From Geodermatophilus chilensis (lineage in GTDB: Bacteria; Actinomycetota; Actinomycetes; Mycobacteriales; Geodermatophilaceae): 38,751 nt of DNA. The notes below the pieces were generated by a model, which was not told the DNA's origin, made no database searches, and worked only from the letters and a program-made list of their open reading frames with translations. The stretch's first letter is position 1, and each line of letters starts with the position of its first letter. This document shows, piece by piece, positions 21,391 to 25,693 of the stretch. A program made the translations under genes and the position numbers. The stretch spans positions 1-38,751 of the forward strand of contig NZ_NVPT01000026.1 in the NCBI RefSeq assembly GCF_002802985.1, in the 5' to 3' direction.

Positions 21391-22896
21391 ATGAGCGTGC
21401 GGCGGGTCATGGGGACCGAGGTCGAGTACGGCATCTCGGTGCCCGGGCAGCCGACGGCGAACCCGACGACGCTGTCCAGCCAGGTCGTGAACGCCTGGGC
21501 GGTGGCCGAGGCGCCGACCCCGCGCCGGCCGCGCTGGGACTTCGAGGAGGAGTCGCCGCTGCGCGACGCCCGGGGCTTCGACCTGTCCCCGGCCCAGGCG
21601 CTGGACCACAACGACCTCGAGGAGGACTCGGGGATGGCCAACGTCATCCTCACCAACGGGGCCCGCCTCTACGTCGACCACGCGCACCCGGAGTACTCCA
21701 CGCCGGAGGTCACCAACCCGCGCGACGTCGTCCTGTGGGACAAGGCGGGGGAGCAGGTGATGGCCGAGGCGGCGCGCCGCGCCGCGCGTGTCCCGGGCAC
21801 GAGTGCGATCCAGCTGTACAAGAACAACACCGACGGCAAGGGCGCCTCCTACGGCGCCCACGAGAACTACCTCATGGACCGGCGGACGCCGTTCCTCGAC
21901 ATCATCCGCGGGCTCATCCCGTTCTTCGTGACCCGCCAGGTGGTGGCCGGCTCCGGGCGCGTGGGCATCGGTACCGAGAGCCGTACGCAGGGCTTCCAGC
22001 TGTCCCAGCGCGCCGACTTCTTCGAGGTCGAGGTGGGCCTGGAGACGACGCTCAAGCGGCCGATCATCAACACCCGCGACGAGCCGCACGCCGACGCCGA
22101 CAAGTACCGCCGGCTGCACGTGATCATCGGCGACGCCAACCTCGCCGAGCTGTCGACCTACCTCAAGGTCGGGACGACGGCGCTGGTGCTGGACATGATC
22201 GAGGCGCGCACCCTGACGCGGGACCTCTCGATCGAGGAGCCGGTGCAGGCCCTGCAGGCGATCAGCCACGACCCGTCGCTGACCCACCGGGTGCGGCTGC
22301 GCGACGGCCGCCGGATGACGGCGCTGGAGGTGCAGCAGGCCTACCTGGAGATGGCGCAGCGGCACGTCGACCGGCGGGGTGAGGACGACGGTCAGGCCGC
22401 CGACGTGCTGCGCCGGTGGGCCGAGGTGCTCGAGGACCTCGCGGTCGACCCGATGCGCTGCGCCGACCGGCTGGACTGGCCGGCGAAGCTGCGGCTGCTG
22501 GAGGGCTACCGCTCCCGCGACGGGCTGTCGTGGGGCGACTCGCGGCTGCACCTGGTCGACCTGCAGTACTCCGACGTGCGGTCGGAGAAGGGGCTGTACC
22601 ACCGGCTGGTGTCGCGCGGCTCGATGCAGCGGTTGCTCACCGACGACGAGGTGGTGCAGGCGATGGTGCGCCCGCCGTCGGACACCCGGGCCTTCTTCCG
22701 CGGCGAGTGCCTGCGCCGCTACCCGGCCCAGGTGGCCGCCGCGTCGTGGGACTCGGTGGTCTTCGACCTCGGCCGGGAGAACCTGGTGCGCATCCCGACC
22801 ATGGAACCCCTGCGGGGCACCCGCGACCACGTCGGCGCGCTGTTCGAGTCGACGTCCTCGGCGCAGGAGCTGGTGGACACCATCACCGGCGGCTGA
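21391..22896 (+). CDS. dop: Deamidase/depupylase of Pup, Dop
   Basis: 501-residue carboxylate-amine-ligase-fold enzyme that deamidates the C-terminal Gln of Pup to Glu and hydrolyses Pup from substrates. The N-terminal GTEVEYGIS matches the Glu-based nucleotide/metal motif. The segment rich in [16 protein letters not shown] (about 44-62) is the Dop-specific loop absent from Paf[16 protein letters not shown] contains the catalytic Asp (about 96). [18 protein letters not shown] and [13 protein letters not shown] are shared with PafA at 30803, showing common ancestry. Pup follows 101 nt downstream, and because this Pup ends in Gln, Dop is required to activate it. Confidence 0.97.
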
Positions 22897-22935
22897 CCCC
22901 CGGTCGGTCGACCTCCGAACGTCGCACCCCGCGGG

Positions 22936-22941
22936 TAACTT
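22936..22941 (+). promoter_or_regulatory. Possible -10 element (TAACTT) of pup
   Basis: TAACTT lies about 57 nt before the pup ATG and would give a short leader with the strong ribosome-binding site GGGAGG at 22987-22992. Evidence is only the hexamer and its position in the dop-pup gap. Confidence 0.35.
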
Positions 22942-22997
22942 CAGCACCGAGGCACCTGCCACAGAGCACCAGCCACGACCTGCACCGGGAGGAACCC

Positions 22998-23207
22998 ATG
23001 GCCACGAGGGACAGCGGCGGTCAACAGCGCTCGACGCGCAGCCGGGAGGAGACCGAGGAGGTCGAGGCGTCGGTCGACGCCGAGGTCGCCGAGCGCCACA
23101 AGGAGGTCTCCGAGGACCTCGACTCCATTCTCGATGAAATTGACGAGGTATTGGAGGAGAACAGCGAAGAATTCGTTAGGTCATATGTTCAAAAAGGGGG
23201 CCAGTGA
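22998..23207 (+). CDS. pup: Prokaryotic ubiquitin-like protein Pup
   Basis: 69-residue, mostly disordered modifier that is ligated through its C-terminus to substrate lysines. The N-terminal part (ATRDSGGQQRSTRSREE) enters the ATPase pore; the central acidic heptad-like stretch (VSEDLDSILDEIDEVLEENSEE) is the ATPase-binding helix; the end is FVRSYVQKGGQ, with terminal Gln needing Dop deamidation. GGGAGG at 22987-22992 fits the ATG. The last 25 or so codons use ATT, GAA, GTA, TTG, TCA, TAT, GTT, CAA and AAA, unlike the near-100% G/C third positions of neighbours, and this patch continues into the downstream gene. Confidence 0.97.
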   Translation: MATRDSGGQQRSTRSREETEEVEASVDAEVAERHKEVSEDLDSILDEIDEVLEENSEEFVRSYVQKGGQ

Positions 23208-23219
23208 CCATTCCTGCTT

Positions 23220-23247
23220 CGCCATTGTGCTGAGATAGAGAATGGCG
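23220..23247 (+). promoter_or_regulatory. Hairpin enclosing the start codon of the HNH endonuclease gene
   Basis: CGCCATT (23220-23226) and AATGGCG (23241-23247) form a perfect 7-bp stem with a 14-nt loop. The loop holds the only purine-rich stretch available as a ribosome-binding site (GAGATAGAG), and the right stem holds the ATG (23242-23244). A translational-repression role is inferred. Confidence 0.5.
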
Positions 23248-23985
23248 TTGGTGAAGTTCTGTCCGGACTGCGGTGGGGACCGTCCTGTCGACCAGTTCAC
23301 CAAGGACAGGCGACGCCGGGACGGGTTGGCCTTCTACTGCCGTGAACACGCCCGTCAGAGGCTCAGGGACTCGAACGCCCGGCGAATCGGGCCTCCGACG
23401 CGTCGATATCCGTTGGGGCGCGACGTCCCGGACGGGTTCAAGTGGTGCCCGGACTGCGACGCGGTCAAGCCCCTGGCTGAGTTCTCCAGGACCCGAGCCA
23501 GCCGCAGCGGCGTGTACACGTACTGCAAGCCGTGTCACAACACCCGCGGCAAGGCTGCGAAGGACAAGGTCGGCGGTTCGCGCACGTATCACCTGAAACG
23601 GCGGTACGGCATCACGGCCGAAGAGGTCGACGAGATGCTGGCCGCGCAGGGCGGGCTCTGTGCCATCTGTCGGAACACGCCGGCGCTCCACGTCGATCAC
23701 GACCATGAGACAGGACTCGTTCGGGAATTGCTCTGTTTCAACTGCAACGGGGGCCTGGGGCAGTTCAAGGACGACCCGGCCGTCCTCCGGGCGGCGGCCG
23801 ACTACGTCGAGCGGCACCGGGGCGAGCGGCGTCGTCCGCAGCCCCTGTCCCGGCGGCGCCTGGAGGTGACCAGCCGGGTCACCAGGCCGCCGGTAGGGTC
23901 GCAGGCGCGCCGGCCGTGGGTCCCGCGGCTCGGTCTGTGCAGTCGTGGCCGCGCGATCCTGGCGGCGAGAGAGGTGGATGGGTGA
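23242..23985 (+). CDS. HNH endonuclease, recombination endonuclease VII type, between pup and prcB
   Basis: 247 residues. Two treble-clef-like modules repeat at the N-terminus: CPDC...YCREH (Cys 7, 10, 33, His 36) and CPDC...YCKPCH (Cys 69, 72, 95, 98). The endonuclease VII domain (about 115-192) has CAIC (140-143), [24 protein letters not shown] with the catalytic-type DH and Asn, and [14 protein letters not shown]. The family cuts DNA, often at branched structures; here the target is unknown. Codon use (TTG, CGA, CGT, GAA, TAT, CCT) is clearly different from neighbours, suggesting transfer. The last 55 or so residues are basic, unconserved-looking and run over a promoter-like site. The TGA overlaps the prcB GTG (GTGA). 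Confidence 0.9.
23865..23883. promoter_or_regulatory. Perfect inverted repeat near an internal prcBA promoter
   Basis: GGTGACC (23865-23871), spacer AGCCG, GGTCACC (23877-23883). It lies 10 bp before a TAGGGT -10 and overlaps the expected -35 position, as an operator would. No regulator is identified. Confidence 0.4.
23894..23899 (+). promoter_or_regulatory. -10-like element (TAGGGT) inside the endonuclease gene, upstream of prcB
   Basis: The hexamer is identical to the dop and uppP -10s. It would start a transcript at about 23906 with a 75-nt leader, allowing prcBA expression independent of pup. Confidence 0.4.
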
Positions 23986-24824
23986 GCGAGTATTCGGCTG
24001 GTCGGAGCGGGTTCCCACCCGCGTACCTGGACCGGGTGGGTTCCTCGTTCACCGACTTCCTCGCGACGGCCGCGCCCGACCTGCTCCCGGGCCGACGTCC
24101 GGTGCCGCAGCTGCCCGTCGGCGACGTCACGCCGCACGGCACCACGATCGTCTCGGTCACCTACGAGGGCGGCGTCCTCATGGGCGGCGACCGGCGGGCG
24201 ACCATGGGCAACCTGATCTCCAGCCGGGACATCGAGAAGGTCTACCCGGCCGACTCCTACAGCGTGATCGGCATCGCGGGCGCGGCCGGCATCGCGATCG
24301 AGATGGTCCGGCTCTACCAGGTCGAGCTCGAGCACTACGAGAAGATCGAGGGCCTCACCCTCTCCCTCGACGGCAAGGCCAACCGGCTGGCCCAGATGAT
24401 CCGCGGCAACCTCGGCGCCGCGCTGCAGGGCCTGGCCGTCGTCCCGCTGTTCGCCGGCTTCGACCTCGACGCCGCGCCGGGCACCCCGCCGGGCCGCATC
24501 TTCAGCTACGACGTCACCGGCGGGAACTACGAGGAGCGCGGCTACGCCGCCGTCGGCTCCGGCTCGCTGTTCGCCCGCAACTCGCTGAAGAAGACCTGGC
24601 GGCCGAACCTGGACGGCGGCGCCGCCACGCGCAGCCTGGTCGAGGCGCTCTACGACGCCGCCGACGACGACTCCGCCACCGGCGGGCCCGACCCGGTGCG
24701 CCGGCTGTACCCGATCGTCTACCGGGTCGACGCCGAGGGCGCCGTCCGGCTGACCGATGACGAGGTCGCCGAGGTCGCCCACACCATCATCGACGAGCGG
24801 GCCGCCGCCGAGGGACAGGGCTGA
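23982..24824 (+). CDS. prcB: 20S proteasome beta subunit PrcB
   Basis: 280-residue catalytic subunit of the 20S core. It is made with a propeptide of about 53 residues (to ...GDVTPHG) that is removed autocatalytically to expose Thr54 in [23 protein letters not shown]. Mature Thr1, Asp17-region (GGDRRAT) and Lys33-region ([10 protein letters not shown]) residues are in place. The GTG at 23982 ([10 protein letters not shown]) is chosen because GAGAGGTGG precedes it and it overlaps the previous stop as GTGA; a frame beginning at 23916 would add an unlikely basic extension. prcA follows 5 nt after the stop. Confidence 0.96.
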
Positions 24825-24829
24825 TCGCC

Positions 24830-25693
24830 ATGACCATGCCGTACTACGCCTCGCCCGAGCAGCTGATGCGCGACAAGGGGGAGTACGCCCGCAAGGGCAT
24901 CTCCCGCGGTCGCAGCGTCGCCGTCGTCACCTACGCCGACGGCGTGCTGTTCATCGCCGAGAACCCGAGCTCCACGCTGCACAAGGTCGGCGAGCTCTAC
25001 GACCGGATCGGCTTCGCCGCCGTCGGTCGCTACAGCGAGTTCGAGAGCCTGCGGGTGGCCGGCGTGCGGCTGGCCGACGTCCGCGGCTACAGCTACAACC
25101 GCCGCGACGTCACCGGCCGGGTCATCGCGAACGCCTACGCGCAGACCCTCGGTGAGATCTTCACCCAGCAGATGAAGCCCTACGAGGTCGAGCTCTGCGT
25201 CGCCGAGGTGGGCGACACGCCCGAGACCGACCAGCTCTACCGGCTCACCTTCGACGGCTCGGTCGTCGACGAGCCGGACTTCATCGTCATGGGCGGCCAG
25301 GCCGAGACCGTCAGCGCCCACCTGCGCGAGCACTTCCTGCCGGGCATGGGCCTGGCCGAGGCCCTGCGGGTCGGCGTCCAGGCGCTGTCCGCGGTCAGCC
25401 CGGCCACCAGCGCCGGCAACGGCGGCCCCGCGCTGCTGTCCGCCGAGCAGCTGGAGGTCGCCGTCCTCGACCGGCGGCGGCCCAAGCGGGCGTTCCGGCG
25501 GATCACGGGGGCGGCGCTGCGCCCGCTGCTCGACTCCGATGGGGCCGACGCCCCCGCCGGCGGCGAGGAGCCGCACACCGCGGCGCACGCCCCGAGCGTG
25601 CCGCAGCCGGGCACCCCGCCTGGCCTCGGCGAGCCGTCGGCGCCCGACAGCGGCGGGACGGCGGGCAGCGGGGGCGAGGCGCCGACCACCTGA
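24830..25693 (+). CDS. prcA: 20S proteasome alpha subunit PrcA
   Basis: 287-residue non-catalytic subunit forming the gated outer rings of the 20S core. The N-terminal gating segment [29 protein letters not shown] is typical, followed by [32 protein letters not shown] and [12 protein letters not shown]. The ordered core ends at about residue 238 ([15 protein letters not shown]). A Gly/Pro/Ser/Glu-rich tail of about 45 residues follows, longer than I recall for mycobacterial PrcA. A 5-nt gap from prcB and a GAGGGACAGGG in the prcB end imply coupled translation, giving equal subunit output. Confidence 0.96.

Follow-up and report, generated by a model that had tools for sequence, protein, structure and literature searches.

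A putative homing endonuclease cassette with a recoded pup tail at the proteasome locus of Geodermatophilus chilensis and its relatives

Genetic organization of the pup-prcB junction

The DNA analyzed here (the window) is a 38,751-nt stretch of Geodermatophilus chilensis contig NZ_NVPT01000026.1. It contains a predicted nuclease gene placed between two conserved genes, pup and prcB, and starting 34 nt past the pup stop codon. The features of this region are listed below (all on the + strand).

22998..23207, +, pup, with the proposed target and rescue segment at its 3′ end (Pfam Pup, E 3.2e-29; TIGR03687)
23127..23204, +, pup tail, with 26 recoded codons (index 0.07, compared to 0.71 upstream; the exchange seen in sister pairs of relatives is sharpest in the final 9)
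23208..23241, +, leader of the CCATTC type, from the pup stop to the nuclease start (the type tracks the nuclease sub-lineage)
23242..23985, +, Endonuclease VII / Hpy99I-like nuclease, lineage A, 247 aa
23251..23388, +, first zinc-type module, residues 4–49 (conserved Cys; AlphaFold model)
23437..23568, +, second zinc-type module, residues 66–109 (conserved Cys; AlphaFold model; Hpy99I alignment)
23590..23811, +, Endonuclease VII core, residues 117–190, with D152, H153, H155, R161 and N169
23836..23982, +, C-terminal extension, residues 199–247, mostly disordered (pLDDT), crossing the prcB leader
23893..23899, +, GTAGGGT, a −10-like motif and putative prcB promoter within the 3′ end of the nuclease ORF
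23982..24824, +, prcB, the right flank, with a GTG start at 23982 (TIGR03690, E 5.9e-108)

The neighboring genes encode Pup, PrcB, PrcA, a proteasomal ATPase and a Pup-ligase family protein, which we take to be Dop from its position. The ORF at 23242–23985 (+) matches Endonuclease_7 of Pfam (E 1.8e-26) and endonuclease VII of PHROG (E 1.4e-46), in agreement with the first-pass annotation, which had described an endonuclease VII-type gene wedged between pup and prcB; the motifs it had quoted (CAIC...HVDHDH...CFNCN) were found in the protein. A second Endonuclease VII-domain gene is present in the same genome (L002, 1501–1737) on contig C323, in which no Pup match was found.

In an alignment of 15 rows (A1), residues C7/C10/C33, C69/C72/C95/C98 and D152/H153/H155/R161/N169 are invariant. 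The same holds for a 39-row alignment (A2), with the exception of C69 (at least 90%), so that the DHHRN signature is conserved in 39/39 sequences; the loss of catalytic residues in most homologs, which the first-pass annotation had named as evidence against a nuclease role, is not seen. The AlphaFold model contains two repeated four-strand-plus-helix modules, both of which may bind zinc, followed by a beta-beta-alpha core, and pLDDT is below 50 over most of residues 201–243. The 3′ ends of the nuclease ORFs differ among relatives. Among proteins of solved structure, the sequence is closest to Hpy99I (residues 66–191, E 6.6e-16), followed by T4 endonuclease VII with a lower score. Hpy99I (PDB 3fc3) shares with the nuclease, over the aligned residues, a zinc-type module and a beta-beta-alpha-metal core.

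Two alternative genetic arrangements were considered and rejected. A Pup-nuclease frameshift fusion is contradicted by the start offsets of the nuclease, which occupy all three frames (by eye), and a search of positions 22000–25000 for a self-splicing intron or known RNA (Rfam, E ≤1) returned one chance-level match (sR53, E 0.29, below the cut-off, in an upstream gene). The overlap of the nuclease stop and the prcB start as GTGA, reported in the first-pass annotation, is indeed present in the window, but it is not a constant feature of these loci (25/63 active-looking family loci, window included).

Upstream of prcB, at a median distance of 99 nt, GTAGGGT was identified in 74 of the 83 family loci that do not belong to genus g8, compared to 0.33 expected from shuffling; none of the 9 g8 loci has it. 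This motif, a putative prcB promoter, bears on the co-transcription assumed in the first-pass annotation. In several loci of families f19 and f3 the likely ribosome site of prcB falls within the nuclease 3′ end, and a remnant locus (G217) still retains such a site (both by eye).

Codon use was scored as a relative-adaptiveness index. The value for the nuclease (0.46) is unlike those of prcB (0.86), prcA (0.85) and pup codons 1–43 (0.71), as the first-pass annotation had observed. The strongest signal, overlooked in that annotation, is the synonymous tail of pup: the index of its last 26 codons (0.07) deviates beyond that of the nuclease itself, and the 2143 windows of 26 codons taken from five host genes all have higher values (minimum 0.32). 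The encoded Pup protein remains normal (Pfam and TIGRFAM matches), i.e. the change is synonymous. The recoded stretch comprises the last 9–26 codons of pup. On the opposite side, prcB codons 2–12 (23985–24017) are also poorly adapted (index 0.25), mirroring the pup tail in weaker form on the right flank, but low values at the start of prcB occur at loci without the nuclease as well.

Distribution of the nuclease in Geodermatophilaceae and other Actinomycetes

In the survey of 112 Geodermatophilaceae genomes (window genome counted), Pup was detected in 104 and a match to the nuclease query in 97. Of the 104 pup loci 103 were examined (G070 was omitted), and they were assigned to nuclease lineage A (69 loci), B (27) or C (3), or contained no detected nuclease (4). 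A nuclease or its remnant is thus present at 99/103 loci, and the three lineages share one site.

Copies were considered active-looking when they formed a single ORF with the catalytic residues, a definition that replaced an earlier one of intactness, which proved too strict. This applies to 47/69 A and 19/27 B copies. The remaining 22 A and 8 B copies (30/96) are broken, partial or catalytically altered, some of them possibly through assembly errors; G041, G042 and G046 were counted as broken, and start-loss was judged from the frames. In two genomes, G073 and G079, the pup-prcB spacer measures 102 and 96 nt, respectively. Since the latter retains a TGATCA-CTGATCAC leader resembling that of B loci of its own genus, it probably reflects loss of the cassette rather than an original empty site. 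The presence/absence map of the pup-prcB spacer, an analysis proposed in the first-pass annotation, is therefore that of an optional and decaying gene, as far as Geodermatophilaceae are concerned (4/103 without, 30/96 broken).

In the lineage C loci (L033 in G005, L088 in G001 and L065 in G004) this site behind pup is occupied by another Endonuclease VII protein, the third of its kind, which resembles the others only in its core. It has 295–297 aa in G001 and G005 and is a short piece in G004; the pup tail is recoded in G004 and G005 too. BLASTP aligned only a 78-column core of this protein with that of the window, and it matches PF02945. It is matched by 1757 phage records, all with less than 60% identity, and by nothing in the 246-genome class set described below, in a search run without a positive control. 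The presence of lineage C at pup suggests an independent invasion of one hot spot.

In the class set (246 genomes of Actinomycetes, pup in 205) the nuclease is patchy, with profile matches in 50 genomes. In 41 of these 50, one match adjoins pup (tables compared by reading; G302 from its locus), in seven it does not, and in G233 and G346 the position of pup is not among the matches listed. The nine genomes without a pup-side match have only matches of 2e-25 or weaker; all listed matches stronger than this adjoin pup. Families f20, f25, f27, f35 and f37 have nuclease-free loci in which pup and prcB abut or overlap, and genus g83 contains both states (nuclease in G250, none in G345). Five f18 loci (L116, L120, L121, L123 and L128) contain at pup a single frame of about 1000 nt with two tandem Endo VII-type matches, resembling a fusion.

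Named genomes were scanned with nuclease patterns alone: among the best 80 of 101 relatives, all 80 loci lie behind pup, 79 of them no more than 200 nt away and one at 232 nt. These 80 comprise 56 Geodermatophilaceae, 17 Micromonosporaceae, 3 Streptomycetaceae, 2 Thermomonosporaceae, 1 Streptosporangiales bin and 1 labeled Bacillus. The last (L260), a nuclease locus on a contig labeled Bacillus sp. AZ43, is probably from a misnamed Geodermatophilaceae genome. From their place among named rows in the nuclease tree, f19 is probably Streptomycetaceae, and f3 is probably Micromonospora-like.

Phages and plasmids were rejected as vectors. Of 1970 matching phage records only 2 fall in the 60–80% identity band (the top-ranked match, Streptomyces phage Starbow, has 38% identity over 91% of the query), and the 18 matching plasmid records are all below 60%.

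Exchange of the nuclease and spelling of the pup tail

The nuclease tree was compared with that of prcB using the same 72 rows, a comparison that the first-pass annotation had put forward as informative. The genus label changes 28 times on the nuclease tree and 12 times on the prcB tree, which favors a mobile nuclease within Geodermatophilaceae. The opposite was found for tail type, with 4 changes on the nuclease tree versus 22 on the prcB tree, on which the A/B lineage itself changes 19 times. Similarly, the leader type of 46 A rows changes 8 times on the nuclease tree and 22 times on the prcB tree. The AU test gave p 0.035 for the A rows of genus g9 as one clade.

Two pairs of sister genomes (G044/G064 and G103/G085) contain nuclease A in one member and B in the other, with different leaders. 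Within each pair prcB is identical over its first 120 nt, and pup upstream of its last 27 nt is 97–100% (G044/G064) or 89–100% (G103/G085) identical per bin, compared to 44–89% in the last 27 nt. The swapped tract thus starts no more than about 9 codons before the pup stop in the two pairs; in the window the deviant spelling reaches 26 codons. This pattern is a sequence signature suggestive of co-conversion of the flanking target at pup.

The active-looking copies have a median omega of 0.26 over 674 pairs with dS below 1.5 (for prcB in these pairs, 0.24), and values from 0.06 to 0.49 in the 14 closest. The nuclease diverges more than prcB in the same pairs (e.g. in G100/G101, with dS of 0.79 for the nuclease and 0.07 for prcB). 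Purifying selection of this kind can be produced by homing itself.

Between families, the nuclease tree (75 rows) has 14 changes for 14 labels, where the minimum is 13. Since it mostly follows host family, wide jumps are not evident, but the single f11 row (G182), placed beside f19, may represent a transfer. Exchange therefore appears frequent inside Geodermatophilaceae and is not evident between families, as would be expected if movement needs flanking homology. Taken together, these comparisons make the mobility of the nuclease cassette well supported.

The tail statistics given below ignore relatedness, except for the tree-based ones. Lineage A typically has the tail GTA CAA AAA GGG (codons 6 to 3 from the end of pup) and lineage B has CAG AAG GGC (codons 5 to 3). 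Tail A was found in 57/69 A loci and tail B in 27/27 B loci. On independent host pairs the association between A/B lineage and tail type was retained (8 pairs, mean 7.7 concordant, 0 opposite, median p 0.008). The B tail differs little from the host-default spelling, with fewer codons recoded than in A, and recoding in B is therefore limited to other positions; drops in GC3 occur in this lineage at codons 2, 6 and 10, counted from the pup end. In lineage A, GC3 is 0.49 in the last 9 pup codons, compared to 0.80 in the nuclease.

Across the class, GC3 of the last 12 pup codons is 0.64 at loci with a nuclease or remnant (n=40) and 0.85 at those without (n=39) (p 2.4e-7), whereas pup codons 18–50 from the end have similar values with (0.88) and without (0.90) the nuclease (p 0.24). 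Loci without the nuclease have mostly host-like tail codons. In family f19, tail GC3 is 0.60 with a full nuclease (11 loci), 0.80 with a remnant (9) and 0.89 with none (3) (full vs remnant, p 0.011; full vs rest, p 0.003). The 30 loci of f3 show a tail GC3 of 0.58 with a full nuclease (5) and 0.80 without a full one (25) (p 0.012), while the upstream value is 0.93 in both; the latter group divides, by hand-averaging, into 16 remnants, many of them weak matches (about 0.76), and 9 loci without the nuclease (about 0.89).

Within lineage A, tail A was observed in 45/47 active-looking and 12/22 dead loci (p 8e-5), and CAG at codon 5 in 3/46 active loci. With 6 independent host pairs, activity and tail were not significantly related, and GC3 of the last 9 codons did not differ between active and broken A loci under the first, stricter definition of intactness (p 0.14). 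A partial Mantel analysis revealed weak fine-scale covariation of tail and nuclease within A (partial r 0.25). This is not specific, since it is seen also for pup codons 30–59 (0.15) and is absent from the B tail.

Five loci without a detected full nuclease nevertheless have AT-rich tails (G126, G262, G225, G243 and G184). Two of them, L156 (G126) and L157 (G262), carry GTA CAA AAA GGG GG tails, with no nuclease match in the former and a short one in the latter. These two recoded tails are possible scars of a lost cassette.

A proposed home-and-rescue cassette at pup

The site specificity of the nuclease, its presence or absence, its decay, its exchange between genera of one family, the movement of the tail with the nuclease and the purifying selection on active-looking copies are all backed by the sequence comparisons described above. 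The suggestion in the first-pass annotation of a homing-type element is consistent with an element that is site-specific to pup, optional, decaying and exchanged between genera. We consider it probable that this element is a free-standing homing endonuclease cassette that targets a stretch including the pup 3′ end and brings along a rescue tail resistant to cutting.

According to this proposal, the cassette, seated at the pup-prcB junction, would consist of the recoded last ~9 codons of pup, the stop codon, the leader and the Endonuclease VII-type nuclease. The nuclease would cleave alleles that are empty or have another tail spelling, in or close to the highly conserved pup 3′ end, and recombination with the incoming locus would copy the cassette together with a variable upstream stretch of pup. 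The synonymous spelling of the tail would restore Pup and escape further cutting. Copies would then decay through mutation and be replaced by other cassettes. The steps that we infer are cleavage at the end of pup, protection of the recoded tail from it, and movement by break repair.

Free-standing homing enzymes can possess the Endo VII motif, since F-CphI of cyanophage S-PM2, a DHHRN homing endonuclease, is located beside psbA (PMC6083498). The pup nuclease resembles F-CphI in being free-standing beside a conserved target gene and in its D-H-H-R-N catalytic signature. The two differ in that F-CphI is a phage enzyme whose own allele is described as shielded from cutting by a group I intron in the target (PMC6083498), whereas the pup cassette is chromosomal and its shield would be synonymous recoding of the target end. 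The T4 seg/mob genes provide a further parallel (PMC2988022): intronless homing with co-conversion, and nuclease genes that harbor host promoters (segG/gene 32). Like these genes, the pup nuclease lies between conserved genes, bears a sequence signature of co-conversion and contains a host promoter, here a putative one. The T4 enzymes (phage-borne, GIY-YIG and HNH), by contrast, are reported to cleave at distances of hundreds to thousands of bp (PMC2988022), a point against the proposed pup target, which would abut the cassette.

The mobile nuclease may instead be accompanied by a recoded tail that is hitchhiking co-converted DNA, or an operator for the nuclease or another regulator, and does not confer immunity. 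This is unlikely, though it fits the joint travel of pup tail and nuclease and the retention of the tail in 12/22 dead A copies. Against it, the tail is more deviant than the nuclease in lineage A, and recoding is weaker in the remnants of f19 and f3, as reported above. Some leaders are palindromic (a stem of at least 6 in 21% of A loci, compared to 6% in shuffles), in favor of this reading, but palindromes exceed shuffles at nuclease-free loci too (23% vs 13%), and RNA folding was ordinary in 8 loci (z −1.2 to +1.1). For the same reasons, a palindromic leader as a general target and a special RNA structure spanning the pup tail and leader were rejected.

The first-pass annotation had also considered domestication within the operon, or a link between the nuclease level and the proteasome. 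Such a host nuclease would be in line with its near-universal presence in Geodermatophilaceae, with purifying selection (omega 0.06–0.34 in ten same-genus pairs among the 14 closest) and with the GTGA coupling at some loci. This reading is not supported, because 30/96 A/B copies are broken or altered, 4/103 loci have no detected nuclease and the lineages replace one another; the patchy distribution in the class (50/246 genomes) also argues against it, and we regard it as very improbable. Least probable of all, and barely credible, is a Type II restriction enzyme or other phage defense, to which the Hpy99I match and a PADLOC hit (REase_II, E 8.7e-10) would point: Hpy99I is described as having an adjacent methylase (PMC6083498), whereas none was found among the scanned neighbors of pup, which are proteasome genes, and neither the pup-specific placement nor the tail recoding is predicted by it.

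The homing cassette outlined above is, in our best reading, a natural counterpart of engineered home-and-rescue drives. In one of these, HomeR, the rescue is reportedly a recoded copy of the target gene. HomeR, an engineered CRISPR system of Drosophila that targets and rescues an essential gene (PMC7968924), differs from the pup cassette, which would be natural, bacterial and based on a protein endonuclease. We give even odds to a full natural home-and-rescue drive, in which several rival cassettes, each with its own recoded, cut-resistant and functional tail, would attack the pup 3′ end, invade empty loci and oust one another; the prcB promoter or ribosome site that probably lies within the end of the nuclease gene would make a clean loss harder.

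In the open literature searched, no paper on a nuclease at pup was found by title or abstract. The host-spelled, A, B and remnant alleles make the cassette idea directly testable in vitro. If correct, it would describe a widespread homing endonuclease of bacterial chromosomes, outside introns and inteins and specific to the ubiquitin-like pup, and provide a natural precedent for recoded-rescue gene drives, in which the rise of resistant alleles and the rivalry of cassettes could be followed across many genomes. The long pup-prcB spacers would then be accounted for, as would the rare codons of pup, a gene of interest in pupylation research.
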